A stretch of 37,987 nt of DNA from contig JACRPZ010000039.1 in assembly GCA_016222905.1 (NCBI GenBank), positions 1 to 37,987 on the forward strand, in the 5' to 3' direction. The notes under the pieces were generated by a model, which was not told the origin of the DNA, searched no databases, and saw only the letters and a list, made by a program, of their open reading frames with translations. This document shows positions 8,933-24,391 of this stretch, in pieces. This DNA is from Nitrospirota bacterium. GTDB lineage: Bacteria; Nitrospirota; Thermodesulfovibrionia; UBA6902. Each line of letters opens with the position of its first letter. Positions within the stretch are counted from its first letter, which is position 1. Both the position numbers and the translations under genes were made by a program.

Positions 8933-8990
8933 TGGTGCCGGCGGTGGGAGTCGAACCCACACGAGCTTGCACTCACCTGATTTTGAGTCC
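8933..8990 (-). tRNA. tRNA-Leu(CAA), 3' half only (likely attachment-site scar)
   Basis: Reading the minus strand, the anticodon loop CTCAAAA (anticodon CAA), the 3' anticodon strand TCAGG, a long class II variable arm, a perfect T arm (GTGGG-TTCGACT-CCCAC), the 3' acceptor strand CGCCGGC, discriminator A and encoded CCA are all present. The sequence 5' of the loop is AT-rich and contains no D arm and no GCCGGCG acceptor strand, so the gene is incomplete and cannot yield a tRNA. Three-prime tRNA halves of this kind are the standard leftover of tyrosine-integrase insertion into a tRNA gene. The chromosomal side would be below 8933 and the inserted side above 8990. Confidence 0.85.
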
Positions 8991-9019
8991 GAAAAATAAT
9001 TTTTAGTATAGCATGAAAT

Positions 9020-9148: not shown

Positions 9149-10021
9149 TTAACAATAAAAGCAGCATGCCGGGTCTTTCCTGTCAAATGTTTCCAGTAAA
9201 ATATAAGCCCTGCCTCTGCAGCCGCCTTTACAATTATCAACTATGGCGCATTCCCTGCATTCGTAAGGCGGAGCAATAAGCTCTTTTCTTATTTGCCGTC
9301 TTTTGACTGAGGAGAATATTTCTTTCAATGCTTCGGAGCAAAGATTGCCGAGCGTAACAGGCAGTAGCGGGCATGGTGTGACGTCCAGGTTATCAGCAAT
9401 ATAAATCATCGTGTTGGCTCCGTTACAGCCCATGCCTTCAAGATGCTCTCTTGTGAAAAAGACCTTCCATAAAAACGGGTCGTGCACCGTCAGCTTCAAC
9501 AGTTCCAATGGTATCTCTTTTAAAGCGTGTGCAAGCTGATCGACTTCACTATGAGCAGGATAAAATATTTCTCCTTCTTCAGCCCTCTGAATCGGAAACT
9601 CAAGCTCCTTTATCCGGTTCTTAATACAAAATGAAATAACAGCAGGGATTTCATGGAAGTTTTTTTTATTTAACGAGAAGGAAACATTGCCAATGATGTT
9701 ACCCGGTACGGATAGAAACTTCTCTACGGAATCCGTCTCAGTGAAAAGCGATATTCTGCGCTCAAGCAAATTCCTTATCATCGGCTTTTCAAGCGAGTCA
9801 TGATTTACTGTCAACCTGATCTTAATATTCGATCCGGCCAATTTGTCGAGAATGCCGCATACAGTTGCGCTTACAGGGTTTGAAAGGTCCCTGAGATTAA
9901 GGACAAATATTTTGCGCTTTATCAGCTCATCGCAAATATTGAAAATGACATCATCACTATGCCGGGATGAATTTATATCCCAGTAGACGATGAATGGATC
10001 TATCAAATTATCAGGACTCAT
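9149..10021 (-). CDS. GeoRSP-type SPASM protein with a degenerate radical SAM domain (290 aa)
   Basis: Partner protein of the radical SAM enzyme encoded just upstream. The barrel start is present (IVYWDINSS), but the CxxxCxxC that binds the SAM-cleaving iron-sulfur cluster and the GGGEPLL motif are missing, so it should not cleave SAM. The C-terminal SPASM domain is complete: cysteines in GCNGANTMIY, DVTPCPLLPV, ECRECAIVDNCKGGCRGRA and PACCFYC would bind auxiliary clusters. This layout fits the SPASM-only member of the GeoRSP system as defined in the TIGRFAM/NCBIfam collection. Its start overlaps the upstream gene by 11 bases, so the two are co-translated. It is the last gene of the long array before the tRNA-Leu scar. 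Confidence 0.8.
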   Translation of the reverse strand: MSPDNLIDPFIVYWDINSSRHSDDVIFNICDELIKRKIFVLNLRDLSNPVSATVCGILDKLAGSNIKIRLTVNHDSLEKPMIRNLLERRISLFTETDSVEKFLSVPGNIIGNVSFSLNKKNFHEIPAVISFCIKNRIKELEFPIQRAEEGEIFYPAHSEVDQLAHALKEIPLELLKLTVHDPFLWKVFFTREHLEGMGCNGANTMIYIADNLDVTPCPLLPVTLGNLCSEALKEIFSSVKRRQIRKELIAPPYECRECAIVDNCKGGCRGRAYILLETFDRKDPACCFYC

Positions 10022-11024
10022 GACGCCAGCAGTGCGGGTCAGGGTTGTTCATATCGCCGGTGAGTGCTATGGCGCGCGCGGTGCAGCCGCCCAAGCATTC
10101 TGTATAATGATCGCATGTGACGCACTTGCCTTTGGGAGTTTTCTTTCTCATCCTCTCCAGTACAGGAGAATTAATCCAGAGGTCTTTCAGGTCGTCTTTT
10201 ATAATGCTGCCTATCACCATAGGAATAAATCCGCAGGGAGTTATATCGCCGTTTGATTTGATATTCAATGAAAGCTTCCCGCAGATGCTTCCCTTTACCA
10301 TCGAATCGTTTTTATTCGCCCCCAACAAAGCAATAACAGGATCATCAAGAGAGATGTCAATGTCTTCTGTTTTGTGCTTCGCCTTTAGGGCATGAAGATA
10401 AAAGTCTCTCCATTCCTCAGCGGTCAAGTCCAATTTGTCTTTATTGGAATAACCGAGTCCCGAGCATTTGAAGTTATGGAAATTAAGATTCTTTACTTTA
10501 TTCTTAATTGCAAATTCAATTAATGCGTCGACATCATTGTGATTAATCTTGCAAATGACCGTTGATATAGAAGTCTCAATACCGGCTTCACTAAGGCAAG
10601 AAATAGCTTTAACGGCTCTTTCGTAACTGCCTTTAATACCACGAAAATTGTCATGTTTGTCAGGCATATGGCTGTCAATACTGATTCCGACTTTTGAAAA
10701 TCCGCTGTCTTTAAGCTCCGCGGCCTTCCCGCTATCAATTAAAAATCCATTACTGTTCATGGAAACCCTCATGCTGTTTTGTGAAGAAAACTTCGCTATC
10801 TCCATCAGGTCTTTTCTTAACAGAGGTTCTCCGCCGCCGAAGTTGATTGAAAGCACGCCTGCCTTTGCTACTCCCTCAATGCATTTGAAAAGCACGTTTA
10901 TATCGAGTTCATCAGAAGGGTCATTCCGGCTGTAGCAGTGGCTGCATTTAAAATTGCATTTATTCGTAACCGCCCAGTTGATCGTCAGCGGCGCGCCAGG
11001 AAGAAAGTCATCCATATCTGACAT
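10011..11024 (-). CDS. GeoRSP-type radical SAM/SPASM protein (337 aa)
   Basis: Catalytic radical SAM enzyme. Near the N-terminus TNKCNFKCSHCYSRND gives CxxxCxxC, followed by the SAM-binding NFGGGEPLLRKDL and 'VSMNSNGFLID'. The SPASM domain carries cysteines in SICGKLSLNI, DITPCGFIP, GKCVTCDHYTECLGGCTARA and PHCWRH, the full set for two auxiliary clusters. Enzymes of this class modify peptides (Cys thioether, C-C crosslinks and similar) or activate partner enzymes. It overlaps the PqqD-like gene by 17 bases and the SPASM-only gene by 11, the tight three-gene order of GeoRSP cassettes. The substrate is not established; two mini-genes in the same array are candidates. Confidence 0.9.
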   Translation of the reverse strand: MSDMDDFLPGAPLTINWAVTNKCNFKCSHCYSRNDPSDELDINVLFKCIEGVAKAGVLSINFGGGEPLLRKDLMEIAKFSSQNSMRVSMNSNGFLIDSGKAAELKDSGFSKVGISIDSHMPDKHDNFRGIKGSYERAVKAISCLSEAGIETSISTVICKINHNDVDALIEFAIKNKVKNLNFHNFKCSGLGYSNKDKLDLTAEEWRDFYLHALKAKHKTEDIDISLDDPVIALLGANKNDSMVKGSICGKLSLNIKSNGDITPCGFIPMVIGSIIKDDLKDLWINSPVLERMRKKTPKGKCVTCDHYTECLGGCTARAIALTGDMNNPDPHCWRHES

Positions 11025-11316
11025 ATCCCTTTTCCTTCAGCTCGGCGATAAACGCCTCTGCATCTTTCTTCAGAACTATTGGCTCGACATCGAATATCCC
11101 GGCAAGTTCGGAAACTATTTCGTCAAGCATACTGCCTTCGCATCTTTTCCATATCTCGGTTCCGAGTATATTAAGCGACAGCATCATCCCGTTAAGGTAT
11201 AAAACAGATGTGCCGATCTTTTCGACATCTTCTCCTTTTTCCAGTCCTTCATAAGCCCGCGATTTGTATTCGTCCTCTTCCCTCCACATGACGTCAGGAT
11301 TCCTGAATATCTTCAT
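11008..11316 (-). CDS. PqqD-like protein, RiPP recognition element (102 aa)
   Basis: A small winged-helix protein of the PqqD fold, which in RiPP pathways binds the leader of a precursor peptide and presents it to the radical SAM enzyme. The family pattern is visible: 'VLYLNGMMLSLNILGTEIWK' then RCEGSMLDEIVSELAGIF, followed by a C-terminal helix FIAELKEKGYV. The start shares a base with the cupin stop and the end overlaps the radical SAM gene by 17 bases. Its presence is the main reason to look for a peptide substrate. Confidence 0.85.
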   Translation of the reverse strand: MKIFRNPDVMWREEDEYKSRAYEGLEKGEDVEKIGTSVLYLNGMMLSLNILGTEIWKRCEGSMLDEIVSELAGIFDVEPIVLKKDAEAFIAELKEKGYVRYG

Positions 11317-11642
11317 CAGTCTCCCACTGCTGTAAAAGACGCAATGACAAGGTTTTCATTTGACGAATTGCGTATAGCATGATCAACAAGGGGCTGAACG
11401 ACAACGATCTTACCGTTTCCGATCACCTGCTTCTCTCCTGCTATCGTGAATTCACCCTGACCCTCCATAACTATCCAGAGATGGTTATCGTGATGAGTAT
11501 GGGTTGTAATCTCCTGTCCGGGTTTCATGCAAATAAGGTTAATCTTTGCGTGTTTGTCCGACCATATTGTTTCCATGTGACGCTTTGCGTCATCAAACTT
11601 CTTGAGCTGATTAATATCCAAGATCAATGCCTTGTTCTTCAT
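11316..11642 (-). CDS. Single-domain cupin protein (108 aa)
   Basis: A small beta-barrel metal-binding protein. The two cupin motifs are clear: 'GQEITTHTHHDNHLWIVMEG' supplies three histidines and a glutamate, and PLVDHAIRNSS supplies the last histidine. It could be a sugar-nucleotide or small-molecule isomerase or dioxygenase, or a ligand sensor; the sequence does not decide. I start it at 11642 (MKNKALILD), because TTGGAGGCAATT lies directly before that ATG. A longer in-frame start at 11702 has no such site. It abuts the PqqD-like gene and may belong to the cassette. Confidence 0.85.
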   Translation of the reverse strand: MKNKALILDINQLKKFDDAKRHMETIWSDKHAKINLICMKPGQEITTHTHHDNHLWIVMEGQGEFTIAGEKQVIGNGKIVVVQPLVDHAIRNSSNENLVIASFTAVGD

Positions 11643-11712
11643 AATTGCCTCCAAGTGATTTGTTTTTGTAAAATTTATATGCCAACAGTTCCTGAATGGC
11701 ACTATCAGGAAG

Positions 11713-13620
11713 CTACTTTATCTTTCTGAAAAATTCTTCAAGAATATCTGAAACCCTGTTAAAGAGATGGAATGATGCAGATACTTGAAGTTCGTCGCTA
11801 TTATTGACTGTACCCCCGAATGTAACCCCAAACCTGGAAGCCAGACTGTTGACAGCAGTCAGATCATTTATTCCATCCTGATGTTTCCCTGCCACAATCA
11901 ATATGCTCTTCCCATCATTTGAAAATCTTGTAATCGTCTCCAGTTCAGCATCAGAAAAATTATTTTCTGAGCCTGTTCCCCCAAAAAGAACCCATACCTG
12001 ACTGTATCCCTCAAGCAGTGAATCTGTGACTTCTGGATTTTCTTTCCCGTCTGTTAACTTTACTGTAAAACTGTCTTTATTCTCAAGGCTCTCACCGGTA
12101 AGAAAACTGAAAACATTTACGTCAGTGCCCTGTCCGCCGGATGCCTTGTATATTAAAATGTTTTTCCTGCTCTCCGACACATTGTTCTCTTCCAGCCATA
12201 CAGCGACATTTCTTATATACCTGTTGTTATCATATTTGTCTGCTGAACTGTTCAGAAACCTCTCACTTCCTGAATCAAAGAGAATGCCGCCTTGCCCTTC
12301 GACAGGATTAGTATAAGTAGCAATAATTCCTTTTCCACCGGGGTCCATAACAATTCTTACATTCCTGTCATTATGAGCTTTGGTAATAACTGCTGAATTA
12401 CCTCCGGAGATTGACCTGACACCCTGTAGAACAGGATTGCCCATGTCTACATACGGGGTGAACACGAAGTGCTGAAACCCATAGGCGAGCATGATCGTGC
12501 CGGCAATACATATGAACATGTACAAAAAGAACACCCTCTTCTTGAAAATCGACCAGAACATTAACATGGTAGGAAGTGCCGTCACCGGGCCGCCAATAAG
12601 AAACGCCAGTCCTGCTCCGCCGTTCATGGTGCCGTCAAGCGTGCTTTTGATATGGGAGAGAATACTTGACGCACTGATCTGGTGCAGGAACAAAGGGACA
12701 GAGCCAAGTGTGACCCAAACGACGCTGAGACTATTTTCCTGACCGAAAAGTTTATATATCCACTCATACGGCATGTATCTCTGAACAATGCTTCCTGTGG
12801 CGACCCCTATGAGAACATATTTCCCCACAAGCCAGAGCATCTCTGATGACTTTGCCAGGAAGATGATGAACATATTGCCGGTTTTGGCTGCTATCCTGTT
12901 GCCGAACTTCTCCTTGCAGCCGCACCTGAGGCGTTCGTCAGGGTAATGCTCATCATGAAAATCTCCTCTCGGCACAGACCCTTCTATGAAAATGCTCTCT
13001 GTCTGAAAGCCTTTATTCCTGATGAGGTGGGTAAGCACTCCGGCAAAGATACCTAACAGGAATGCTGCGACCGTCCTTATTACAGTCCATTCAGTGCCCA
13101 GGTCATTAAGGGAGAGCAGATAAGTTGACGGGCTCATCAAAGGGGAAGTGACAAGAAGAGCCATTACAGGCGCTAACGGCAGACCCGCAAACAGCAGACT
13201 GATCGCTGTTGTCAAAGTACCGCATGCGCACAAGGGAGTAAATATACCTATGAACGCTGCCAGAAAAATACTGGAAAAACCATACCTGTTGAGGGTCCTT
13301 TGAAGTTTGATCGCGAGCTTGTAAGTGCGGATAAATCCGGCCAGAAACACCCCGATAAGAAAATACGGGAACACATCTTTCAACTCCTCCAGCATTCCAT
13401 GCCCGCTGAATACCATGTCCCAGATTTCACTTCCAAGGATAATGGGGAATGGTTCTTTTAGGAGATCGGGACTTACGGCCTGACCGGTTGGGCCGTAGAC
13501 CCAGACATGCCAGACTATCAGCGCAAAAGACGCAAATACCATGAACAGCAGCATCCTGTTTGCTGAGCGGGAAGGCGTTCCATGAATCCGGCACTCATCA
13601 TCTTTTTTTTGATTTATCAT
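11713..13620 (-). CDS. SO_0444/ArsP-type permease fused to a C-terminal GldG-like soluble domain (635 aa)
   Basis: The N-terminal 390 residues form a DUF318-type (PF03773) permease with about 8-10 membrane helices. Landmarks are PLCACGTLTTAISLLFAG, VTSPLMSPSTYLLSL, a Cys-containing cytoplasmic loop RCGCKEKFG, and in the second half VPLFLHQISASSILSHI and GGPVTALPTMLMFW. Relatives export arsenicals, copper/zinc or organic metal compounds. The C-terminal 240 residues are soluble ('ILIYKASGGQGTDVNVFSF', 'YSQVWVLFGGTGSENNFSDAELETI') and look like a GldG/DUF4350-type domain that detects or binds a ligand outside the membrane. That fusion is unusual for the family. It lies 27 bases after the YedE gene. 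Confidence 0.75.
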   Translation of the reverse strand: MINQKKDDECRIHGTPSRSANRMLLFMVFASFALIVWHVWVYGPTGQAVSPDLLKEPFPIILGSEIWDMVFSGHGMLEELKDVFPYFLIGVFLAGFIRTYKLAIKLQRTLNRYGFSSIFLAAFIGIFTPLCACGTLTTAISLLFAGLPLAPVMALLVTSPLMSPSTYLLSLNDLGTEWTVIRTVAAFLLGIFAGVLTHLIRNKGFQTESIFIEGSVPRGDFHDEHYPDERLRCGCKEKFGNRIAAKTGNMFIIFLAKSSEMLWLVGKYVLIGVATGSIVQRYMPYEWIYKLFGQENSLSVVWVTLGSVPLFLHQISASSILSHIKSTLDGTMNGGAGLAFLIGGPVTALPTMLMFWSIFKKRVFFLYMFICIAGTIMLAYGFQHFVFTPYVDMGNPVLQGVRSISGGNSAVITKAHNDRNVRIVMDPGGKGIIATYTNPVEGQGGILFDSGSERFLNSSADKYDNNRYIRNVAVWLEENNVSESRKNILIYKASGGQGTDVNVFSFLTGESLENKDSFTVKLTDGKENPEVTDSLLEGYSQVWVLFGGTGSENNFSDAELETITRFSNDGKSILIVAGKHQDGINDLTAVNSLASRFGVTFGGTVNNSDELQVSASFHLFNRVSDILEEFFRKIK

Positions 13621-13647: not shown

Positions 13648-14754
13648 TCAATCCAATCCCGTCTGATATTCAGGCGCAAGGCCTTTATCTCTTTCACGAT
13701 AAAGCAGCCCAGCAGCAAACAGGAAAATAAACCCGGCTAAAACCGTGATCTTCCCCCAGAATGGAACCGCAGTAGAGGTCGCCGCGATTCCCCAATTCTG
13801 CACAAGCGCTCCGCCGACAAGCATACCCATAACCGCTGCACCTGCATCGGTGTCGCCCTGTCCGGAGAGTACTAACTGTCTTAGCGGGCATCCCTTAATA
13901 AGAACAGAGCCGAAGCCGACAAGCCCCATGCCGAGAGCATCCCATAAATAATTTTCAGATGAACCCGCCATTACAGCAGCATTAAAAGAGAATTGACCGG
14001 TAAGTAAATTCGCAAACAGCGCAGTCAGGAAGAATGCTCCTATAGCCACCAAAAGCCCCGATGATTTAGGGCAGTTGTAAACTTCTTTCGGCCCCCACAA
14101 TAACAATCTTGCCAGTCCGCCTGTAACGCAAAAGCCTGATATTTGAGCGAATGCTCCTATAAGCAGGCCGAATAATAATGACATCCATACCGGCGCATGA
14201 AGCGCAGCAGAACCCTTTGTGCTTGTATTTATGAACGGGGCCTTAAATATAAGCAGGACAAAAAGTACAAACATTAGAACTGGAATGATAAAACCGTTTG
14301 CACGCTGCGCATCTGACGGCCTTCCGAGCCTGAAACCTCGTTCAAGAAACTGCAAACCTGTCCACACACCAGCTGCAAGACCTATAACACCGGTTAGGGC
14401 TGAAAAATCTCCGGCAGATATTCGCAATATTAATTTTATCGGACAGCCGATGAATACCGAGCAGCCTATAATCAGAAAGACCCCGATAAAAAATCTTAGA
14501 AGCGGGGAACTGCCGGAAGTCACTTTAAATTCTTTTGTGAAAAGAGAAGTGAAAAATGAACCCAGCACAAATGCGATTATTTCCGGCCTGATGTACTGCA
14601 TCCTTATATCATCGTGAAGTCCGACGGCCCCGGCTATATTTCTCATGAAGCATGAGACACATATACCGGTGTTCGGCGGGTTGCCGAAGTAAGAAAGCAG
14701 AACCGCTCCTATGCCGAGCATGCTGCCGGTTATTATGAATTTTGCTTTACCCAC
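13648..14754 (-). CDS. yedE: YedE-family putative selenium/sulfur transporter (368 aa)
   Basis: A polytopic membrane protein of the YeeE/YedE family (about 10 helices). The opening FGNPPNTGICVSCFMRNIAG followed by AVGLHDDIRMQYIRPEI is the signature of the YedE subgroup linked to selenium metabolism (TIGR04112 in my memory). Further conserved spots are IGCPIKLILRISAGD, 'FAQISGFCVTGGLARLLLWG' and LIKGCPLRQLVLSGQGD, with the pore cysteines used for thiosulfate-like ions in YeeE. The cargo here could be a selenium or sulfur compound. No selD or selenoprotein factors are in the window. It overlaps the upstream TPR gene by 8 bases. Confidence 0.85.
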   Translation of the reverse strand: MGKAKFIITGSMLGIGAVLLSYFGNPPNTGICVSCFMRNIAGAVGLHDDIRMQYIRPEIIAFVLGSFFTSLFTKEFKVTSGSSPLLRFFIGVFLIIGCSVFIGCPIKLILRISAGDFSALTGVIGLAAGVWTGLQFLERGFRLGRPSDAQRANGFIIPVLMFVLFVLLIFKAPFINTSTKGSAALHAPVWMSLLFGLLIGAFAQISGFCVTGGLARLLLWGPKEVYNCPKSSGLLVAIGAFFLTALFANLLTGQFSFNAAVMAGSSENYLWDALGMGLVGFGSVLIKGCPLRQLVLSGQGDTDAGAAVMGMLVGGALVQNWGIAATSTAVPFWGKITVLAGFIFLFAAGLLYRERDKGLAPEYQTGLD

Positions 14755-15271
14755 AAGCCCCCGCCATCTTCTTTAAGAGGTAATACATATTTTTTTTTGC
14801 CGCCTTCAGTTCCTGATCATCCGGTCTTTTTGACAGCATGTCATTTATCTTCAACTTCGCTTCTTCAATCGCGATCTTTATTTTGTAACCCTGAAATACA
14901 GGTGTCTTCTTATCGAGGTAATCTGGATTCAGGTCCACCGCTTCTTTATAAAGATAAAGCGCATGTATCGTATCCTGCCTCCTCATCATAACATCACCCA
15001 TCAGCATATAAAGTTCCCCATCGTAAGGATATTTCTTTAGAAGCTCGTTCAGAAGAGTTTCTGCCTTCAGGAGATTGTCCGCCTCTATCATACTCTTGAG
15101 TATTTTGGTCTGATCGTCTGAAATTTCAGTCGCCTCAGCCGTGTTTCTTGCATTAATTAATGAACGATTAATATTATTCCCTGGCACACTGCGGTGTTCA
15201 GCGCTGACAACCGCAATGGCGGCGATAAATATAAGGATAAAGATTAAAGATAATTTGTCCAGCTTATCCAT
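14747..15271 (-). CDS. Membrane-anchored TPR protein (174 aa)
   Basis: An N-terminal hydrophobic segment (LSLIFILIFIAAIAVVSA) serves as signal peptide or anchor. The soluble part has about two TPR units: 'LLKAETLLNELLKKYPYDGE' and 'LYMLMGDVMMRRQDTIHALY', ending LYKEAVDLNPDY. It is probably a periplasmic assembly or scaffold factor. TPR proteins of the CcmH/NrfG kind help present apocytochromes for haem attachment, which would fit the cytochrome-rich array, but this is inference. It sits between the PhnD-like lipoprotein (42-base gap) and the YedE gene (8-base overlap). Confidence 0.7.
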   Translation of the reverse strand: MDKLDKLSLIFILIFIAAIAVVSAEHRSVPGNNINRSLINARNTAEATEISDDQTKILKSMIEADNLLKAETLLNELLKKYPYDGELYMLMGDVMMRRQDTIHALYLYKEAVDLNPDYLDKKTPVFQGYKIKIAIEEAKLKINDMLSKRPDDQELKAAKKNMYYLLKKMAGACG

Positions 15272-15313: not shown

Positions 15314-16213
15314 TTAATACTTCTGATACGGCGGCATGTTAGTACGTTTTGCTATGTCCCTGACGATGTTATAATCCTCGTCCTTCATGCCTTCGAACCC
15401 GTCAAGCCTCGCCCTTTTGAGAACTTTCACGACCTCACCGTCTATCTCAACCGTGTCCTCATTCTTCAATTCCATCAGGGCCTTCTTCAGTGCATTGGCA
15501 AGCAATTCGTTCGTCTTCTGCGCTGTGCCGAAAGTGCAATAAGGGATAGGATCTCCTTCTGCAACAATCCTGAAGTCTTCGCGATTGATCTTGCCTTCTT
15601 CTATCATCCTCTCAAAATCAAGCATCTGAAAAGCGCCTGCGTCATACTTGCCGTAAAGAACGCTGTAAATGATCTTCTCGTGTTTATACGTTCCGGTCGG
15701 TATGGTATAAGATGAAAGATCATCTTCCGGATCAATTCCATCTTTGAGCATAAGGTCGTACTGCTGCAAATATCCTGTCGGCGCGAGCATCGGGCCGAAG
15801 ACCATACTCTTTCCCTTCAGATCTTTGACCGTATTGATACCGCTGTCCTTCCTTGTGACGATAGCTCCGCTTGATCTTGCGCCGAGCCCCCCCTGCTTAT
15901 CCGCTGTCAACGCCCTTACCCCGTGATATCTGTTCAAAATTATGTAAAGCAGAGAATTGGTGTGCGTAAAATCCAGCTTTTCGACCTCGCTGGTAAAGCT
16001 GGTAGTATCTATCGCCAATGCCTCGGTCTTTACTCCAAGTTTTTTACCTAAATAAGCTGTCAGCGGCCTGAACCTGTAAAGCGTCTCTTCCTCGCTGTTG
16101 CAGATCATGTAACCTATCCTGTAAACCTTTTCGTCTTTAGTTAAAGAAGGAGACTGCTGACAGGATAAAGAAATTATAATTAATATGATGGGCAACCGTT
16201 TAATAAATTTCAT
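15314..16213 (-). CDS. PhnD-like periplasmic substrate-binding lipoprotein (299 aa)
   Basis: A lipoprotein signal (LPIILIIISLSCQQSP) with the lipid-modified cysteine at residue 18. The mature part follows the PhnD/phosphate-phosphite-phosphonate-binding pattern: 'YRIGYMICNSEEETLYRFRP' then LTAYLGKKLG, a hinge VTRKDSGINTVKDLKGKSM, 'GPMLAPTGYLQQYDLMLKDG' and 'YSVLYGKYDAGAFQMLDFER'. No ABC permease or ATPase is nearby, so it probably acts alone as a binding protein or sensor. PhnD-like proteins are common beside multihaem cytochrome and redox clusters, and their ligand there is unclear. It starts 18 bases after the ResB-like gene. Confidence 0.8.
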   Translation of the reverse strand: MKFIKRLPIILIIISLSCQQSPSLTKDEKVYRIGYMICNSEEETLYRFRPLTAYLGKKLGVKTEALAIDTTSFTSEVEKLDFTHTNSLLYIILNRYHGVRALTADKQGGLGARSSGAIVTRKDSGINTVKDLKGKSMVFGPMLAPTGYLQQYDLMLKDGIDPEDDLSSYTIPTGTYKHEKIIYSVLYGKYDAGAFQMLDFERMIEEGKINREDFRIVAEGDPIPYCTFGTAQKTNELLANALKKALMELKNEDTVEIDGEVVKVLKRARLDGFEGMKDEDYNIVRDIAKRTNMPPYQKY

Positions 16214-16231: not shown

Positions 16232-17137
16232 TCAAGTACGTATTTTTCTGAAAAAATATATCGTTCCCCCGATTCCGACTAAGCAGAATCCAAAATAGGT
16301 TACCGGCGTTCCGGGATCCCTGGTTATCTGAATGCCGATAAACGGGTTCCCGTACAAATCCCTGCTTGTTGCAGTGTGGTAGAATTTCAGTCCCTGCCAT
16401 TCCAACGGGCTGTTCACTTCGGTTCTTCCCTCCGCAACTATTTTTCCACCTTTTGAAAGAACCAGATCCACCCATGTTTTTTTTATAACCGGATCCATGT
16501 ATGACACAAGTTTGAACTCATATGGAAAATGTTCAGACATCTGTATCACCCCAGTGGTATCAGTATATCCTATATAATTGTCTCCATTAAAAATACTAAG
16601 TTTCATGCTTTGCGATTTTATATCAAGTGAATCTACCTGAATCAGGTAATTCTCAAGCGCAAATTTTTCGCCGGTCTTCAGTGTAAAAAGCCTAATCTTC
16701 TCACCGTCTCTAAGAACGCCTATTTTTAAAGGCACCGGATAATATTCTTCGTTCAGTTTCTTCACGTTAATTTCCACACCAAGAGGAACGTCTCTTTTCA
16801 GGTCCCACCTATAAACGTTCTCTGTTGAGTCTCCTTCATAGACATTTACAGTGGCGACAAATCCGAAAGCGCTGATCCCCCCGCCGATAAAAGAAGCGAA
16901 CACACCAATATGCATGATAAGTGCCGGAGCTGAGAGGGTCTTTATCCTTCTCAGGGTGCAAAGGGCAAGATTTATCACCATCAAAGCCAGTAGCGCCCTG
17001 ATGATATTCCATAGGACGGCTCCTGCCTCCTCAGTAAAAGTCGTAGTCATCAGCATCAGACAAAGAAGAGGCAGAAGGATCATCATCAAGCTTCTTGATA
17101 AAAGATAATCGTAAATCCACAACAAACCGCGTTTCAT
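16232..17137 (-). CDS. ResB-like cytochrome c biogenesis protein (301 aa)
   Basis: Membrane protein with helices at about 12-32, 38-60, 70-95 and a final one at 277-295, framing a periplasmic domain. This is the ResB/Ccs1 arrangement, but shorter than classic ResB. Typical spots are the long N-terminal hairpin, NVYEGDSTENVYRWDLKRDV, the 'PLEWQGLKFYHTATSRD' stretch (ResB proteins often have 'G..fyqts') and the last helix before a basic end. In system II, ResB works with CcsA/ResC to deliver haem to CxxCH proteins. The adjoining giant cytochrome is an obvious client. No CcsA homologue is visible. Four-base overlap with the upstream gene. Confidence 0.75.
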   Translation of the reverse strand: MKRGLLWIYDYLLSRSLMMILLPLLCLMLMTTTFTEEAGAVLWNIIRALLALMVINLALCTLRRIKTLSAPALIMHIGVFASFIGGGISAFGFVATVNVYEGDSTENVYRWDLKRDVPLGVEINVKKLNEEYYPVPLKIGVLRDGEKIRLFTLKTGEKFALENYLIQVDSLDIKSQSMKLSIFNGDNYIGYTDTTGVIQMSEHFPYEFKLVSYMDPVIKKTWVDLVLSKGGKIVAEGRTEVNSPLEWQGLKFYHTATSRDLYGNPFIGIQITRDPGTPVTYFGFCLVGIGGTIYFFRKIRT

Positions 17138-17715
17138 ATCAGCTTCTTTTTCTTAAGGAAATCCTTTGCAGCTTTTTTCGCTTTTTCACCGGATTTGACT
17201 GAGTTGAGCGCCTCATGAAAAAATCTGTCGTTTGCGATGTCCGAAAGTTTGTTGATCAGCTTGGGCAAGGCCGGGAAATAAATAAGGACGTCCTCGCTCA
17301 TTACCGGAGCATAATAATATGAGCCAGATCCGTCATCGCCTGACAGTGTTCCAAAGGGCTTTAGCCATATAAGGTTCATCCTGTTCCTGAATTCTTCCTT
17401 GACGAGGTCGTGTGCCTTTGCCTTGTCCCCATTATTCGGTGCATTCAGCATCTTTACTGCACGTTCAGTATTTTCAATGACTATGCCGATCTCACCTTTC
17501 GTTACGTCCTCATAAATTTCTTTTGAACTGTTGTAGACCTTGATGTTAACGGTGGTTCCGGTCCTTTCATTAATGAGCGCTGAAACCAGCTCGGCAAGCA
17601 CGCTCTCATTAGCGGAATTAAGAACGCCTATGGTGAGAATCTTGCCCACACAGGCATTAGCCTGTGCGGTAAAAAGCAGGAACGATACCAATAAACTAAA
17701 AAATATTTTCTTCAT
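17134..17715 (-). CDS. Small periplasmic OpuAC-like substrate-binding domain protein (193 aa)
   Basis: A signal peptide (MKKIFFSLLVSFLLFTAQANA) is followed by a cysteine (CVGKILTIGVLNSANE). The rest resembles the first half of glycine-betaine-type binding proteins (OpuAC): 'LAELVSALINERTGTTVNIK' then VYNSSKEIYEDVTKGEIGIVIEN, where 'SRE.ye.v.kGeid' is the usual hinge of that fold, and 'APVMSEDVLIYFPALPKLIN'. At 193 residues it is shorter than true transporters and has no ABC partners, so binding without transport is likelier. It overlaps the ResB-like gene by 4 bases, so the two are coupled. Confidence 0.65.
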   Translation of the reverse strand: MKKIFFSLLVSFLLFTAQANACVGKILTIGVLNSANESVLAELVSALINERTGTTVNIKVYNSSKEIYEDVTKGEIGIVIENTERAVKMLNAPNNGDKAKAHDLVKEEFRNRMNLIWLKPFGTLSGDDGSGSYYYAPVMSEDVLIYFPALPKLINKLSDIANDRFFHEALNSVKSGEKAKKAAKDFLKKKKLI

Positions 17716-17799: not shown

Positions 17800-18615
17800 T
17801 CAATTTATTTCTGGATACCCGCCTTCGCCAACAGTAGGGGCCTTAAGCACGGGTATGACTGAAAAGTTATCAATCACGATATCAAAATTCTCTTTCTCTG
17901 AATCAATAGCCAGATCATTGTAAGCATGATATTGCGCTGAAGGAAACTTGTCTGAATATCCGATGTAGTATTTACCCTTCGGCAGATAAAGCGCGTAACG
18001 TCCTTCCTCATCCGTCCATGCAGATATAAAATCCGGAAATCTATTTCCTAATGTGGAACCTTCTTCCTCTATATTAAGAGTGGTTAGGGGGGTGTTTCCC
18101 TCTTTATTCTTCATTGCAAGCATATAAAACATCTTCACTGGCGTGCCCTGCTTATCAACAATACGCCCTGACACCTTCATATAATTCTCTCTTGTTTTTC
18201 TGAAAAGGTGCGCTGCCTCCATGATATCGGTAACGGTAAAATCCATTGTAAACTCCCTGTCATCCTTAAGCTCTATCTCAGCCGGCTCGCCGGAATGTTT
18301 GTCGCCTGCGGAAAGCGGCCCGTATTTTGCGCCCTTTCTCAACCGCGCTATAGCCCAATATTTCCCTGTCGGAATTGTCATGTTGAAACGCCCCTCGCTA
18401 TCAGTGAGCGCTGATATGAAGTCAGCAGGCCTTTTTGTATCCGCAGCGCTGTATATAAATACCTCCGCTCCTTTTACGGCTTTTCCTTCCACATCCAGTA
18501 TACGTCCTTTGAAAACCGCAGGTTCAACCGCAAAGGCTTCAAGATTTACCAATATCTGAACGGCTATAAATATGTTAACGGTAATCTTCAGAATGTTATT
18601 AAGTAAAGTTTTCAT
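17800..18615 (-). CDS. Secreted carboxypeptidase-regulatory-like (beta-sandwich) protein (271 aa)
   Basis: A signal peptide (about 1-30, ending LEAFAVEP) is followed by two carboxypeptidase regulatory-like domains. Each has the family pattern 'G.i.d..G.pv.ga.v' then '.t.d.eGrf.m.ip.GkYy': 'FKGRILDVEGKAVKGAEVFI' with GRFNMTIPTGKYWAIARLRK, and 'VSGRIVDKQGTPVKMFYMLA' with GRYALYLPKGKYYIGYSDKF. The fold is an Ig-like sandwich, probably structural or adhesive at the cell surface. The last ~17 codons (VIPVLKAPTVGEGGYPEIN) are encoded by a dispersed repeat (17811-17860), so the natural C-terminus has been replaced or extended. It belongs to the same family as the modules at 21.5-25.4 kb. Confidence 0.8.
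   Translation of the reverse strand: MKTLLNNILKITVNIFIAVQILVNLEAFAVEPAVFKGRILDVEGKAVKGAEVFIYSAADTKRPADFISALTDSEGRFNMTIPTGKYWAIARLRKGAKYGPLSAGDKHSGEPAEIELKDDREFTMDFTVTDIMEAAHLFRKTRENYMKVSGRIVDKQGTPVKMFYMLAMKNKEGNTPLTTLNIEEEGSTLGNRFPDFISAWTDEEGRYALYLPKGKYYIGYSDKFPSAQYHAYNDLAIDSEKENFDIVIDNFSVIPVLKAPTVGEGGYPEIN
17811..17860 (-). repeat. Dispersed repeat, copy A (inside coding sequence)
   Basis: On the plus strand CTGGATACCCGCC, then AACAGTAGG, then CTTAAGCACGGGTATGAC. The same blocks occur in inverse orientation at 24416-24481. This copy supplies the 3' end of the 271-aa gene. It looks like a small non-autonomous intergenic repeat. Confidence 0.65.
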
Positions 18616-18672: not shown

Positions 18673-21231
18673 TTAAGGGGTGTGTTGTTTCTCCCCATCC
18701 AATTTCACAGGCTCTCTTAAATACGGCTCGTAAATAACCTTGCCTATCCCCGGCTCATCGTTGCCGTCAAATATCGTCTCGCCAGGCTCGCTGTTTCCCC
18801 ACCAGTTTTCTTTTGCGTCTATATCTTCCGTATTGAAATCGCCGGCCTTTACATTGTAGGTCATGTTTGAATAAATATTGTTCCTCTTAATGGTCAGGCC
18901 GCTCCCTTTTTCTCTCACAAATATGCCGACCTCGTTATTTAATATAACATTTTCCTCTATCAATGCATTTCCGAAGTATGACCTGATTCCGACTTTATTT
19001 TCTTTAAATAATGAACGGTTGATTTCAACAGGCCCGCTTCTGAATCTTATGCCGCCCTCGTTGTGTATGAAACGGCTGTTTGAGATTTTCAGATTGGTAA
19101 AGTGGCTGTGAATCGCCCATGTCGCATATCCAAAATCGCAATATGAGAACTCGCTTCCGTCCGCATGCTCAATAAGTATTTCGTCCCACAGATTGTCTTC
19201 GTTTTTTTCAGATGCAGTAAATACTATCCTTTTTTCACTTGTTCCGACCGCAAGAATCTTTCCGCCTGAAATCTTCAACCCTCCCCCTTTTAAAAATATA
19301 ACCTTAGCGCCGGGAGCGATTTCAAGGGTTGAACCGGAAACAGTCACAGGATTTTTTAAATGAATGCCTGTGTGCCAAACAACATCCGTATAAATATTTT
19401 TTACCGGCCATGTAAATATTGAAGAAATTTCATTTTCAGGAGAATGAAAGACCTTGCCTCTTTTAGATTCATCCTCTTTATCGTAAATTACTGAGGCCAC
19501 ATCTTTGATTCCCCACCAGTTCGATGGTGCGAAAACGTCGCTGCCGCTTTCGTTCTCAACTGCATGAAGACCGTTTCCGGCAATGTTGTTTCCTGTTATC
19601 GTTCCAGTAAACGATTGTATGCCGATGCCCCTTTCGCCGTTTTCAGAAATTAAATTATCTTTAATCACTGCTCCGGCATTGTGCAGATTGATGCCGTTAA
19701 ATCCGTTGCCCTGAATAAAATTCCCGCTGATATCGAGGTTGTCAACTCCCTTGAGCGACAGGCCTGATTCATAGTTATTCACAATGGCATTACTGTTGAA
19801 CCTGCCGTGAAACGCATCGTTTACCATCAGTCCGAATCTGTTGCATCCGACAAAATTTTCCTCCGCAGTGGTTATGCCTTCCCTGATCTTAAATCCCTCA
19901 TTCATGTTGTTTAAAACCGTATTGTTCTTTGCATTCAGATTCGCACGGAAAAAATTCACGCCGTTGATGTTGTCGGAGACATAATTGCCGGTAAAGTTTA
20001 CCTCTGAATCCCTGCCTTTGATTCCGTTTTTGTTGCCGTAGATATGGCTTCCTCTTATTTCAACGGCTGATTCCTGAAACTGTATGCCGATATAATTATT
20101 CCTCAGAACGGATTCATTCACCATCACGTTTGAGAAGTGAAAATGCAGCCCTCTGTATGCGTCCTCTATCTGACAAAACTCCACAAGATTCTGCGCTCCG
20201 TCGCTGTTCATGATGTTGATAGAATCCCAGTCTCCGGTTCTTTTTTGTCTTTCTGCAGATCTAAAGATGATAGGCTCCTCTTTCGTGCCTTTCGCAATTA
20301 GAACGCCTTGCATCAGGATTCCGTTCTCTCCGATACCGTCATCGTTTGTATCTTTCATCTTAAATTCAACAACCGTGCCGGAGGCAATTATCAATCTGGA
20401 ATTTTCAGGCACTCTAATCAGCCCGTTAATCACTATCCTTCCACGCCAGACTGTATCTCCGAGCAAAACTTCATCGCCGTATTCTTTGCTTATTTCTTTA
20501 TCCTGAATTTTATACTCCCTCATGAAATTAAAATCCTTCTTGTTACACGAACCAGCATGTTTTGCAATCAAACTCTTACTGCCGGATCTATCAGTATCAG
20601 GTTTCATAACAAGATTTTTTGTTTCTTCAAGCAAGTACAAATCCTTTTTCATGTTATGTTCAACGACGCTGTCCCTGAAATTAACCCGTGCGCCTGCAAA
20701 TGAAAAAACGCCGTAATCATTTTTTACGGCCTGTGTATTCTTCACGTTCACAAAAGTCTGCTGCCCATGCGCAACAAGGCCGTACCGGTTATTCTCAAGA
20801 ATAGAGTCCGTTAATTCAAGAGAACCGTTCATTATAAGAAGGCCTGTTTCCGCATCATCTATCCTGCACGCTTTTATATATGCCTTCCCTCCGTCAATAA
20901 TTATTCCAGCCCATCTGTCAGACATACCATTTTTCACTTGAAATACTACAGGCGCTTTCCTGGTTCCCTTGATCTCAAGCCTGCCCCGGATTGTCATCTC
21001 GGTCATGAATGAAAGGTATTCCGCCTCGCTCTTTGTCCTATCGGAAGGAATGATCTTTACCATTGTGCCGGATAGAATGGTGAGTGTAACGCCTTCAGGC
21101 ACAACGATGTCTTCTGAAAGAGTTATTTCGCCTTTCCAAACAGTGTCTATTATGATGGTTCTTCCTAAAGCGGGAAAAGGAAATAAAACAAAAAAGATGA
21201 GAAACAGGAGAGTCGTTTCCAAAAATTTCAT
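18673..21231 (-). CDS. Secreted right-handed beta-helix protein (852 aa)
   Basis: A signal peptide (MKFLETTLLFLIFFVLFPFP, ending ALG) is followed by three repeated units, each opening with '[DT][TV]VW..[IG]' and a capping motif (IDTVWKGEITLSEDI near residue 27; 'LLGDTVWRGRIVINGLIRVP' near 260; 'YTDVVWHTGIHLKNPVTV' near 615). Long runs of NosD/pectate-lyase-type coils follow: many 'N.i..N..Gi.l....n..i..N.i' turns. NWWG motifs ('SNWWGIKD', 'ENWWGNSEPG') end units two and three. It is most likely a surface or periplasmic carbohydrate- or surface-binding protein rather than an enzyme; no catalytic set is visible. It lies downstream of the HPC mini-gene and hairpin. Confidence 0.85.
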   Translation of the reverse strand: MKFLETTLLFLIFFVLFPFPALGRTIIIDTVWKGEITLSEDIVVPEGVTLTILSGTMVKIIPSDRTKSEAEYLSFMTEMTIRGRLEIKGTRKAPVVFQVKNGMSDRWAGIIIDGGKAYIKACRIDDAETGLLIMNGSLELTDSILENNRYGLVAHGQQTFVNVKNTQAVKNDYGVFSFAGARVNFRDSVVEHNMKKDLYLLEETKNLVMKPDTDRSGSKSLIAKHAGSCNKKDFNFMREYKIQDKEISKEYGDEVLLGDTVWRGRIVINGLIRVPENSRLIIASGTVVEFKMKDTNDDGIGENGILMQGVLIAKGTKEEPIIFRSAERQKRTGDWDSINIMNSDGAQNLVEFCQIEDAYRGLHFHFSNVMVNESVLRNNYIGIQFQESAVEIRGSHIYGNKNGIKGRDSEVNFTGNYVSDNINGVNFFRANLNAKNNTVLNNMNEGFKIREGITTAEENFVGCNRFGLMVNDAFHGRFNSNAIVNNYESGLSLKGVDNLDISGNFIQGNGFNGINLHNAGAVIKDNLISENGERGIGIQSFTGTITGNNIAGNGLHAVENESGSDVFAPSNWWGIKDVASVIYDKEDESKRGKVFHSPENEISSIFTWPVKNIYTDVVWHTGIHLKNPVTVSGSTLEIAPGAKVIFLKGGGLKISGGKILAVGTSEKRIVFTASEKNEDNLWDEILIEHADGSEFSYCDFGYATWAIHSHFTNLKISNSRFIHNEGGIRFRSGPVEINRSLFKENKVGIRSYFGNALIEENVILNNEVGIFVREKGSGLTIKRNNIYSNMTYNVKAGDFNTEDIDAKENWWGNSEPGETIFDGNDEPGIGKVIYEPYLREPVKLDGEKQHTP

Positions 21232-21279
21232 ATACTATATTTTAAGGCAACAATTGCAAAAAAGGAAATAAAACAGCCG

Positions 21280-21312
21280 GGCGGTGAAAGCTTAAAATAA
21301 ACTTTCACCGCC
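21280..21312 (-). terminator. Strong hairpin between the HPC mini-gene and the beta-helix gene
   Basis: An 11-bp perfect stem (GGCGGTGAAAG/CTTTCACCGCC) with an 11-base loop. Downstream on the minus strand comes CGGCTGTTTTATTTCC, a modest T-rich tract. It could end transcription, or protect the 3' end of a short peptide message while allowing some read-through to the beta-helix gene. Confidence 0.6.
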
Positions 21313-21348
21313 TGACAATAAGCTCCGATCCGTCATATCTCATTCATA

Positions 21349-21411
21349 TCAGCAGGGATGAACAGCGGCGCTCCCGATTATTCTGGGAGGAACATATTTT
21401 ATCTTCTTCAA
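21349..21411 (-). CDS. HPC mini-gene 1: 20-residue peptide ending His-Pro-Cys
   Basis: The short frame TTG...TGA encodes (M)KKIKYVPPRIIGSAAVHPC. It is preceded by a near-perfect Shine-Dalgarno (GGAAGGAGGTT) with 5-6 bases before TTG. A second copy, encoding MKKKYVPPKITGSAVVHPC (24538-24597), occupies the same position in a duplicated cassette. The shared pattern is KK-x-KYVPP-[RK]-I-x-GSA-x-VHPC, with different bases in between, so the peptide sequence is under selection. It is flanked by a carboxypeptidase-regulatory-like gene upstream and, after the hairpin at 21280-21312, a beta-helix gene downstream. It has no signal peptide. I do not recognise a named family. A conserved C-terminal cysteine makes it a candidate substrate for the PqqD/radical SAM cassette, or a tiny metal- or haem-ligand peptide. 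Confidence 0.75.
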   Translation of the reverse strand: MKKIKYVPPRIIGSAAVHPC

Positions 21412-21465: not shown

Positions 21466-22335
21466 TTATTTCTTATTTTCAATCTTCTTCTCCATCTCCT
21501 GTTTAATCTTTTTCATTTGCTCTTCCCGGATATTCTCGTCTGTTCCTGCTCCCGGCTGATGCTTGGGACCCATATCAAGATGCCTTATCACCTTTATGTC
21601 TACGCCCTTTGTAATCTCGCCTGTCTTAGCGGTTGCGGCAGTAGGCTTTTCTTCTCCGTAGCCTCCCATGATCGACCCTGGGATAGGCGGGCCGCCTCCG
21701 TACACGTCTCTCACTCTTAAATAATACTGACCTCCTTTGTCTACGGTGATAATATATTTGCCGTCCTTTCCGGTTTTAACAGAAGTAAAGGTCGGGATTC
21801 CGGTCATTGTCTCGGTATAGTATGCAAATAATATCGCCCCCTCAACAGGTTTGCCAGCCATATCAAGGATGGTGCCTGATATTCCTGTGACTCCCTCTGG
21901 GAGTGAACGTTTATACGGGACCGCTTCTCCGAGAGTACCAAGCTTCACTTCCTTGCCATTCTCAATAACGTGCTGCATCGGATTACCTGCCTTATCTTCA
22001 CTGATAAAGAAATAATCGCCATCCAGCGGCGGCCCTGCTTTTTCGGCAGATACCCTTTTAATAGCTCCGATGTAATACTTACCGGCAGGAAGCGATACAC
22101 GAAACCTGCCTTCAGAATTAACTTCGTCAATTCCGTCCGGGACCCTGAAGTATTTATCGGTAGACGGAGGAGGCCCGGATTTAGCATCAAAGAAGACTAT
22201 CATGGCATTGGATAACGGCACGTTATCCTTGATCATTATCTGACCTGATATCCAGCCGGTCTCAATTTCCGCATGGATCGCAGTTGCTGATAACACTGCA
22301 ATGAGAAATGACAGAAATATAATTTTTCTAATCAT
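21466..22335 (-). CDS. Secreted carboxypeptidase-regulatory-like protein (289 aa)
   Basis: A signal peptide (MIRKIIFLSFLIAVLSATAI, ending HA) is followed by two beta-sandwich units: 'ISGQIMIKDNVPLSNAMIVF' ... 'GRFRVSLPAGKYYIGAIKR' and 'ISGTILDMAGKPVEGAILFA' ... 'GKYIITVDKGGQYYLRVRD'. The C-terminus is a charged helix (QMKKIKQEMEKKIENKK). It is a clear paralogue of the 244-aa protein at 24.7-25.4 kb; both share KY[FI]RVPD, EGDYFFI-like and 'TGKDGKY' blocks. Together with the mini-gene and a beta-helix gene it forms one copy of a duplicated cassette. It overlaps the upstream 687-aa gene by 8 bases. Confidence 0.8.
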   Translation of the reverse strand: MIRKIIFLSFLIAVLSATAIHAEIETGWISGQIMIKDNVPLSNAMIVFFDAKSGPPPSTDKYFRVPDGIDEVNSEGRFRVSLPAGKYYIGAIKRVSAEKAGPPLDGDYFFISEDKAGNPMQHVIENGKEVKLGTLGEAVPYKRSLPEGVTGISGTILDMAGKPVEGAILFAYYTETMTGIPTFTSVKTGKDGKYIITVDKGGQYYLRVRDVYGGGPPIPGSIMGGYGEEKPTAATAKTGEITKGVDIKVIRHLDMGPKHQPGAGTDENIREEQMKKIKQEMEKKIENKK

Positions 22336-24391
22336 GCTGCCTCCCTTTTCCGGCCCCTGCGTTTTTAACCGGGGTACTATAAAATGGTTTGTAGATTGCG
22401 CCGCCTAATGAAACGTCTGTGTTTTCATCGAATATGGCATTCTTGATATCCTCGTCTCTGTCGCTTCCCCACCAGTTGTCACTTAGCAATATATCATATC
22501 CCTGTCTCTCACCCAGCCTGTAATTATATTCAGTATTATACGAAATATTGTTGTAAGAGACAATAAATTGTTTGAGCGGAAGGGCGTCTTTCTTGTCGAA
22601 TGTGTTCGAAAAACCGACTATATTCTGATTCGACGGCACAAGGAAAATGCCGACATCGTTATTTCTGATGTTGTTGTATGTGATCTCGACAGGCTCTTCA
22701 ATCCTTGTATGTCTGATGCCGTAAGTGTTATAAAAAATGTCATTATGATCAATGCTAAGCTCAGCCCTGCCGAACCTTATGCCTTCATAATTATTTCGAA
22801 AGACAGAGTCTTTAATTACCGCTTTTGAGAAATGAACCTGAACGCCGGTAAAGGCATATTCGAACATGCAGTGTCTTATAATACTCTCATCGCCTGACAC
22901 AAAAAACAGTACGTAAGACCAGTCCGCTTTATCCGGCATTGTCTCAGCGGAAGTAAACCTGATGGGTCTTTTTGCAGAGCCCTGAGCCTCAAGCCTGCCG
23001 CTTACCTTTATCATGGCGTCTCCAACTCCGTCCCCTGTCCTGTCAATTTTCTTAAATCTGACCGTTGTCCCCGGAGCAATGGTTAGCGTTACTCCTCGGG
23101 CTACATGAACGATCCCGGAGATTAATATGTCCCGCTCCCATACGGTATTTATGCCGATAACTACATCCCCTTTGTATTCATGATTACTAACCTTCTTTTC
23201 TTTTAACTTCTTATCTCTTATTTCTGACTTCTTTATACTCTCCCCCATCACCCTGCTTACAGAAATATTTACAGCATCATGTTGTTTCTCATTCATTATT
23301 ACCGCGTGATTTGCGTTAGCTTCATAAAGCCCGTAGTACTCGCCTTTGACAGGGGCTTCCCCGACGAGCTGCCGGGCCAGCAGGTAATATGCGCCTTCTG
23401 CTGCGTTAATGGAGTAATACCCTTTCTCATCGGCTCTGACCATATAATCCGGCATGGTCCTAACGTAATGCATCTGAAACATATCCGAGAGATTTCCCTT
23501 GTAAGCCATGACATAGAGGTCTTTAACAGGGTCGCCATTCAAATCCGCTGCCCTTCCGCTTATCCTGAAGACATCCAGCGCCTCAGAGAGTTTATTCTCC
23601 CTGAACCTCATGCTGTCTGCGTCTGATTTTTTCACCAGAAGCGCAGGATAGGCTTCCTCATTAAGAAATGCCTTAAGGTCGTCTTTGGGATAACATGGAA
23701 TCTCCACCTGTGTTTCTTTTGAGTCCGCAATAGTAACCGGATTGCCTGCAAGATAACAGAAGAGGTCGCCCTTTTCCAGAGGGGTCATGCCATTGTTTCT
23801 GTTTCTCTTGCGCGCGATAACAACATATTCTCCGGGCTCAATGCTCATGCTGAAGATCCCGTTATCATCGGTCGCGCTCGTAAGGAAACCCATGCCCCTA
23901 AAAATAGAGTTTGGAGTTTGTAATTCGGAGTTAATAGTTAAAGCGGGAACGGGATAGATTGAAACCTGCGCGCCTTTGACAGGAGCGCCCTTGAAGAAGA
24001 CTTTACCTGAAAGTTTTGCAGAAGAAGATTCCTTTACATTCACTGCTGTTTCAGGAAGAGCCATAAATGGAACCCATAGGTTTTTGTCTTCAACCTTGAC
24101 CGGATTGGCTCCGTGATAGGAAAAATATTTTTTCTCATCATCCTGTCCTGACGCAATTAAATAATATATTCCTGACGGCAACTCTATTTTGAAGAATCCT
24201 TCTTTTTTGCCTGGGGCCGAAACATAAGCTGGAATTCCTTTTTTAATATCCTGAAACCTGCTATAAAATTGCACCTTTGAGTCTTTAAGCGGACCCTCTT
24301 CAGAAAGCACAACCCCTTCAATAACAGCGGAATATGAAGATATGGCCGAAAAAAAGATTACTAGCAAAAAAACTATTACGTGAATCTGCAA
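22328..24391 (-). CDS. Secreted carboxypeptidase-regulatory-like plus beta-helix protein (687 aa)
   Basis: A signal peptide (MQIHVIVFLLVIFFSAISSY) is followed by three carboxypeptidase-regulatory-like units up to about residue 375 (each with '.ik...G.Y.l.a', for example 'GFFKIELPSGIYYLIASG', 'GIFSMSIEPGEYVVIARK', 'GYYSINAAEGAYYLLARQ'). A right-handed beta-helix unit then starts at 'INTVWERDILISGIVHVARG' and ends with SDNWWGSDRDEDIKN. The helix is homologous to units of the 852-aa protein. At about residue 155 the stretch TINSELQTPNSIF lies between two beta strands; it looks like a translated non-coding repeat (23905-23942). A charged linker (KKSEIRDKKLKEKKVSNHE) also looks secondary. The protein is probably surface-exposed; function unknown. 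Confidence 0.8.
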   Translation of the reverse strand: MQIHVIVFLLVIFFSAISSYSAVIEGVVLSEEGPLKDSKVQFYSRFQDIKKGIPAYVSAPGKKEGFFKIELPSGIYYLIASGQDDEKKYFSYHGANPVKVEDKNLWVPFMALPETAVNVKESSSAKLSGKVFFKGAPVKGAQVSIYPVPALTINSELQTPNSIFRGMGFLTSATDDNGIFSMSIEPGEYVVIARKRNRNNGMTPLEKGDLFCYLAGNPVTIADSKETQVEIPCYPKDDLKAFLNEEAYPALLVKKSDADSMRFRENKLSEALDVFRISGRAADLNGDPVKDLYVMAYKGNLSDMFQMHYVRTMPDYMVRADEKGYYSINAAEGAYYLLARQLVGEAPVKGEYYGLYEANANHAVIMNEKQHDAVNISVSRVMGESIKKSEIRDKKLKEKKVSNHEYKGDVVIGINTVWERDILISGIVHVARGVTLTIAPGTTVRFKKIDRTGDGVGDAMIKVSGRLEAQGSAKRPIRFTSAETMPDKADWSYVLFFVSGDESIIRHCMFEYAFTGVQVHFSKAVIKDSVFRNNYEGIRFGRAELSIDHNDIFYNTYGIRHTRIEEPVEITYNNIRNNDVGIFLVPSNQNIVGFSNTFDKKDALPLKQFIVSYNNISYNTEYNYRLGERQGYDILLSDNWWGSDRDEDIKNAIFDENTDVSLGGAIYKPFYSTPVKNAGAGKGRQHD
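23905..23942 (-). repeat. Small in-frame repeat insertion
   Basis: Coding for LTINSELQTPNSI on the minus strand. The DNA (runs of GGAGTTTG and TTCGGAGTT on the plus strand) has the look of 'aactccgaact' type intergenic repeats. It interrupts a carboxypeptidase-regulatory-like unit without shifting the frame. Confidence 0.45.

Follow-up and report, generated by a model that had tools for sequence, protein, structure and literature searches.

The GeoRSP cassette, which encodes a PqqD-like protein, a radical SAM/SPASM enzyme and a SPASM-only partner, has until now been an orphan maturation cassette in NCBIfam, its substrate unstated. From a window of 37,987 nucleotides of Nitrospirota DNA (that is, the whole stretch analysed) and from related genomes, we conclude that GeoRSP is, with high probability, a RiPP-type maturation system that would bind and modify the HPC mini-peptides, which end in Val-His-Pro-Cys. 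This family is very probably the GeoRSP substrate because it is nearly confined to GeoRSP-bearing Nitrospirota and because it carries a docking motif. A sequence-only reading of the window had proposed the same link; it is now supported by co-occurrence, by adjacency in one genome and by the lack of a rival small-ORF family, with the modification itself predicted.

The three GeoRSP genes of the window adjoin and overlap one another on the minus strand, as in the defined three-gene cassette (Table 1). The PqqD-like and radical SAM genes share 17 bases, and the radical SAM and SPASM-only genes share 11. The genes and order claimed by the sequence-only reading are thereby confirmed, the SPASM-only protein falling below its NCBIfam cut-off. 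Specifically, the PqqD-like protein matches TIGR04302 with 141 bits (cut-off 100) and the radical SAM protein matches TIGR04303 with 570 bits (cut-off 400), while the SPASM-only protein reaches 221 bits (E 1e-65) against the TIGR04304 cut-off of 300. That cut-off is exceeded in 11 of 61 genomes searched, HPC-bearing relatives among them. Given its score, we regard the protein of the window as a divergent TIGR04304 relative and not as a curated equivalog.

Table 1. Features of the window, in order of position
Feature	Position	Strand	Remarks
SPASM-only partner, TIGR04304-like, under cut-off	9149-10021	-	290 aa; without CxxxCxxC
Radical SAM/SPASM enzyme, GeoRSP (TIGR04303)	10011-11024	-	337 aa; cluster motif CNFKCSHC
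PqqD-like RRE protein, GeoRSP (TIGR04302)	11008-11316	-	102 aa; NCBIfam, AlphaFold, Foldseek
Cupin-domain protein, abuts PqqD	11316-11702	-	Conserved-array member in many relatives
ArsP/SO_0444-like permease	11713-13620	-	MFS transporter at this place in some relatives
YedE family putative selenium/sulfur transporter	13648-14754	-	TIGR04112, over cut-off
TPR protein, conserved array member	14747-15271	-	
PhnD-like substrate-binding protein (SBP)	15314-16213	-	Co-occurs tightly with HPC and GeoRSP
ResB-like membrane protein, conserved array member	16232-17137	-	
OpuAC-like periplasmic binding-type protein, conserved array member	17134-17715	-	
Secreted CarboxypepD_reg-domain protein	17800-18615	-	
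Right-handed beta-helix (NosD-like) secreted protein	18673-21231	-	
Terminator-like hairpin 3' of HPC gene 1	21270-21315	-	
HPC mini-gene 1, LKKIKYVPPRIIGSAAVHPC, TTG start	21349-21411	-	Predicted leader KKIKYVPPRI, core about GSAAVHPC
Secreted CarboxypepD_reg-domain protein, directly upstream of HPC 1	21466-22335	-	
CarboxypepD_reg / NosD-like secreted protein, downstream of HPC 2	22328-24391	-	
HPC mini-gene 2, MKKKYVPPKITGSAVVHPC	24538-24597	-	
Secreted CarboxypepD_reg-like protein, directly upstream of HPC 2	24700-25434	-	
Secreted protein, 2446 aa	25493-32833	-	G037 (L050) homologue directly precedes HPC gene
Giant CxxCH-rich multiheme cytochrome	32827-37986	-	Runs off window; adjoins 2446-aa protein

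The radical SAM protein has the CxxxCxxC motif and the SPASM cysteines of a radical SAM/SPASM peptide maturase; C23, C27 and C30, as well as C248, C264, C301, C304, C310 and C314, are invariant in 35 homologues. Its closest solved relatives are PqqE, the nearest of them, SkfB and 5v1q (SuiB), all of which modify peptides. The PqqD-like protein is predicted with high confidence (AlphaFold pLDDT 96.4) to adopt the winged-helix PqqD (RRE) fold. The best PDB matches of this model in Foldseek are the lasso B1-leader complexes 5v1v, 6jx3 and 5v1u, which include TbiB1 and another lasso B1, both leader-bound, together with PqqD itself (5sxy). For the SPASM-only protein, the structure model shows a degenerate radical SAM/SPASM fold; seven cysteines of its SPASM region are invariant among 29 homologues, and the protein is missing beside the enzyme in two lineages. 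Directly behind its gene in the window lies a fragment resembling a tRNA or tmRNA 3' end (8936-8996, minus strand), with the T-loop GTGGGTTCGACTCCCAC followed by CGCCGGCACCA. It scores 12 bits with the Rfam tmRNA model, below gathering, and is possibly the integration-site scar of a mobile island.

Two co-directional peptides ending in VHPC had been noticed upstream of the trio, and both are confirmed, 10.4 and 13.5 kb from the radical SAM gene. Each mini-gene is preceded by an AGGAGG-type ribosome site, and an HMM search of the source genome found no third copy. In relatives, the family consists of ORFs of 19-21 codons with the consensus MKKxKYVxPKVVGSAxVHPC, in which the search pattern itself accounts in part for Y, P, G and HPC being invariant. 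A Shine-Dalgarno-like site precedes 59 of 66 distinct copies, and variation among copies falls chiefly at third codon positions. These features mark the HPC mini-genes as a real, translated family. Stop codons differ across it (TGA, TAA, TAG), and we therefore rejected selenocysteine read-through at the TGC-TGA ends. Most gene callers do not pick up genes of this length, and NCBIfam has no match for the peptides; hence the genes have probably been overlooked. Copy number varies: two f13 genomes contain 12 and 14 pattern matches. At loci L132-L135 (G296, G351), the genes are amplified to 12-14 copies, acquire a second cysteine (YARPRVVGSVCVHPC) and are mostly paired with CarboxypepD_reg genes. 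A possible variant ending in VQPC, YIKPRIVGEAVVQPC, is seen at G020:C453:33266-33313.

Discrete lasso RREs recognise the leader motif [Y/W]xxPx[L/V/I/A/F/Y], which PQQ precursors share (PMC13381572; see also PMC10368454). Every HPC peptide carries a matching YxxPx[V/I/L]. Among short ORFs with an HPC end and a preceding Shine-Dalgarno site, 69 of 69 contain YxxPx[LVIAFY], as a precursor served by a discrete PqqD-type RRE should, and permuted tails return none; this count derives from 1.37 Mb of loci that are redundant and in part retrieved by the pattern itself. The sequence-only reading had taken Tyr-Val-Pro-Pro for a core that might be modified. Given the motif, and given that the PqqD model best matches lasso B1-leader complexes, we instead assign YVPP to an RRE-docking leader: KKxKYVxPKV is probably the leader, and (G)SAxVHPC probably the core. 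In the same genomes, a small peptide family of the form MQxKKxYKKPEIARVEM...TACKT... lies near a different PqqD homologue (L022, L029). It has YKKPEI near its N-terminus, is unrelated to HPC and offers a natural parallel; it is probably a separate RiPP.

In the mechanism that we propose, the discrete PqqD-type RRE would bind the N-terminal half of the 19-21-residue precursor through YxxPx[V/I/L] (leader about KKxKYVxPKV) so that the radical SAM/SPASM enzyme would be presented with the C-terminal (G)SAxVHPC. The SPASM-only protein would act as a degenerate partner, perhaps as an electron carrier or scaffold. Modification would most likely fall on the invariant Val-His-Pro-Cys tail. As a first guess for the chemistry, we suggest a radical-formed bond to the sulfur of the terminal cysteine, as in sactipeptides or ranthipeptides; for comparison, PapB ligates the substrate cysteine thiol to an auxiliary cluster (PMC10470005). 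One trans-acting maturase set would serve the dispersed precursor genes, which number between 1 and about 14.

It is quite possible, within the same substrate assignment and without excluding it, that the enzyme leaves the sulfur alone and instead forms a C-C bond, an epimer or a decarboxylated residue in V-H-P, giving a small cofactor like PQQ or mycofactocin. PqqE is the solved structure nearest to the enzyme, the leader motif is common to PQQ precursors (PMC13381572), and the core sits at the C-terminus with HPC invariant. The cysteine is itself part of that invariant end, however, thiol chemistry is common among SPASM peptide maturases, and no PqqF/G- or MftE-like peptidase was noted among the array genes scanned.

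The distribution of the two gene sets agrees with the pairing. Of 230 genomes of the class, 32 have the GeoRSP radical SAM gene, 32 have HPC mini-genes and 30 have both; the respective counts are 25, 28 and 24 among 395 genomes sampled from the phylum. Within the order (47 genomes), PqqD is above cut-off in 16 genomes, and all 15 genomes with HPC fall among these 16. Fisher's test gives 6.5e-33 for the class (about 1e-33 for class and phylum sample), a value that ignores kinship. Shuffling within genera (ten genera) equalled the observed concordance of 45/48 in 4 of 200,000 permutations; that is, HPC and GeoRSP are mostly gained or lost together inside genera. A reversed control pattern had no matches. 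In a blind test, six GeoRSP genomes were newly seen and HPC genes were then found in five, the sixth being 66% complete. The phylogenetic co-occurrence that the sequence-only reading had pointed to as a check is thus strong. The findings named there as contrary to the link did not materialise: in the class, only 2 of 32 HPC genomes are without GeoRSP, one of them probably through contamination, and beside GeoRSP there is no further recurring small-ORF family. A scan of 84,980 species genomes with the strict pattern found it in two Nitrospirae only, the pattern being too narrow to cover Geobacter.

Most exceptions to the pairing are contamination or broken or incomplete assemblies. The HPC contig of G405 (C156, L196) and a contig of a different genus (G296:C15, L198) share 99.97% identity along 3 kb, and the HPC gene in G405 therefore probably reflects contamination or misbinning, i.e., MAG cross-contamination. 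In G109, the array contig ends inside YedE, short of the usual GeoRSP position; in G453, the GeoRSP contig stops within PqqD; and G130 is 74% complete. G394 has the SPASM-only gene just behind its HPC gene, and its radical SAM gene was not found. G001 is a real exception: it has a full GeoRSP trio, neither HPC nor the array SBP was found in it, and an HMM search for a divergent HPC gave a weak partial match only, which reads as noise.

HPC and GeoRSP belong to a larger array whose gene order is kept across families. It starts with a giant secreted protein (multiheme cytochrome or fn3), followed by HPC, CarboxypepD_reg, beta-helix and OpuAC-like genes, continues through ResB-like, PhnD-like SBP, TPR, YedE and an ArsP-like permease or MFS gene, and ends with cupin, PqqD, radical SAM and SPASM-only. 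In other genomes, there are HPC genes that come immediately after homologues of the giant multiheme cytochrome. At locus L046 (5822-8578), genes for a CbiM/CbiQ/ABC cobalt/nickel-type ECF transporter stand between the HPC and beta-helix genes, and related genes occur in L043, L044, L051 and L134. In G037 (L047, L050), the HPC and SPASM-only genes (85%) are window-like, and PqqD and radical SAM come from another clade; from the sequences, part of the enzyme set looks to have been replaced by recombination. Direct coevolution of peptide type with enzyme type is accordingly not clean, since G037 combines the enzyme of one clade with window-type peptides. A plasmid search with the radical SAM protein recovered remote radical SAM proteins only.

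The PhnD-like SBP is found in 36 of 37 genomes with HPC and GeoRSP and in none of the negative-control genomes without both. Because it co-occurs with HPC equally well, the profiles alone establish one co-inherited module and do not single out the modifier of HPC. One could thus imagine that HPC and GeoRSP merely share a horizontally moving array, with GeoRSP acting elsewhere and HPC unmodified or modified by another array protein. The conserved array order would fit this, as would the radical SAM tree, which mixes families and so suggests whole-array transfer. We nevertheless consider it unlikely, in that known sets of PqqD and radical SAM/SPASM proteins are dedicated to short peptides, HPC is the sole recurring short peptide and carries the RRE motif, and one genome has HPC directly behind radical SAM. 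Our assignment of HPC as the GeoRSP substrate therefore draws, beyond the profiles, on this adjacency, on the RRE motif and fold, and on the biochemistry of the relatives PqqE, SkfB and 5v1q.

The adjacent arrangement is that of G069, where PqqD, radical SAM and HPC follow one another on the same strand, with HPC 108 bp downstream of radical SAM and a hairpin after it. HPC lies within 20 kb of radical SAM on the same contig in 19 of the 37 genomes with both (on the same strand in 18), where about 2.5% would be expected per genome. As a point against the link, the majority of genomes have HPC at a distance of 7-17 kb from GeoRSP or on a separate contig. Overall, the precursor gene is near the maturase or co-inherited with it. 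Within 4 kb of GeoRSP, every other small-ORF family is limited to at most four genomes. We rejected the few families seen as alternative partners; they resemble non-coding frames shared by close relatives.

A co-directional gene lies upstream of 56 of 66 HPC genes, mostly by 20-140 bp. Among 45 upstream proteins scanned, 26 match CarboxypepD_reg, and several match multiheme cytochromes, with 8 hits to Paired_CXXCH_1 and 7 to Cytochrom_c3_2 (overlapping sets). That the peptides are instead regulatory leaders, i.e., attenuators or ribosome-stalling uORFs for downstream secreted-protein genes, seems highly improbable: terminator-like hairpins do follow 21 of 66 HPC genes (5.4 expected in shuffles), most have a co-directional gene downstream, and the Pro-rich YVPP and the Pro-Cys-stop end could stall ribosomes, but several HPC genes end transcription units with a convergent gene beyond (L002; 7 of 66 convergent), HPC is the last gene in G069, behind radical SAM, the invariant Y, P and G at fixed positions fit an RRE leader, and an attenuator would not predict strict co-occurrence with GeoRSP.

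For HPC as a GeoRSP substrate, the gene positions also hint at a function. Most precursor genes closely follow a gene whose product is secreted, be it a carboxypeptidase-regulatory-domain, beta-helix, fn3 or multiheme-cytochrome protein, and the matured product therefore probably serves this redox- or metal-related array of secreted proteins. Neither a peptidase nor a transporter of the product was identified. More tentatively, we suggest that one trans-acting GeoRSP set turns the genome-wide family of 19-21-residue peptides, each with its gene behind that of a large secreted cytochrome or carboxypeptidase-regulatory-domain protein, into a peptide-derived cofactor or ligand for secreted machinery of Nitrospirota, probably for extracellular electron transfer or metal handling; if so, radical-SAM-matured peptides would gain a new functional class. 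RiPP systems do not usually pair a single maturase with many dispersed precursors beside genes for secreted cytochromes, and the layout suggests that the role is physiological and not that of an antibiotic. A substrate family this short can be synthesized, which opens GeoRSP chemistry to direct in vitro testing.

Among known systems, GeoRSP as defined by TIGR04302, TIGR04303 and TIGR04304 is matched by all three window proteins in the same overlapping gene order. The window differs in the lower score of its SPASM-only protein (221 vs 300 bits), in its Nitrospirota host, and in the substrate family and conserved array identified here; the NCBIfam entries examined name no substrate, and a literature search found no paper naming GeoRSP. 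Lasso systems resemble it in that the PqqD model matches B1-leader complexes and the HPC peptide has YxxPx[V/I]. However, the HPC precursor is merely 19-21 residues long, and a lasso peptide was rejected, with neither a B2 transglutaminase-like protease nor a C asparagine-synthetase-like cyclase among the array genes scanned. Sactipeptide and ranthipeptide enzymes (SkfB, PapB) share the radical SAM/SPASM class, and the HPC cysteine could serve as sulfur donor, but HPC has a single cysteine at its extreme C-terminus and its thioether is only putative. In mycofactocin biosynthesis (MftA-MftB-MftC), an RRE and a radical SAM/SPASM enzyme act on a short peptide at its C-terminal residues. That peptide ends in Val-Tyr, whereas HPC ends in Val-His-Pro-Cys, and no other Mft genes are among the array genes scanned. 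The PQQ system (PqqA-PqqD-PqqE) likewise combines a discrete PqqD RRE with a radical SAM/SPASM enzyme on a very short precursor of the same leader-motif class; in contrast, no PqqB/C/F was seen in the array, and the HPC precursors have VHPC without a Glu/Tyr core and are encoded by many dispersed genes. HPC/GeoRSP is thus probably a case of PqqD/radical SAM-SPASM peptide maturation in which the precursors are very short and are encoded by dispersed genes in multiple copies.
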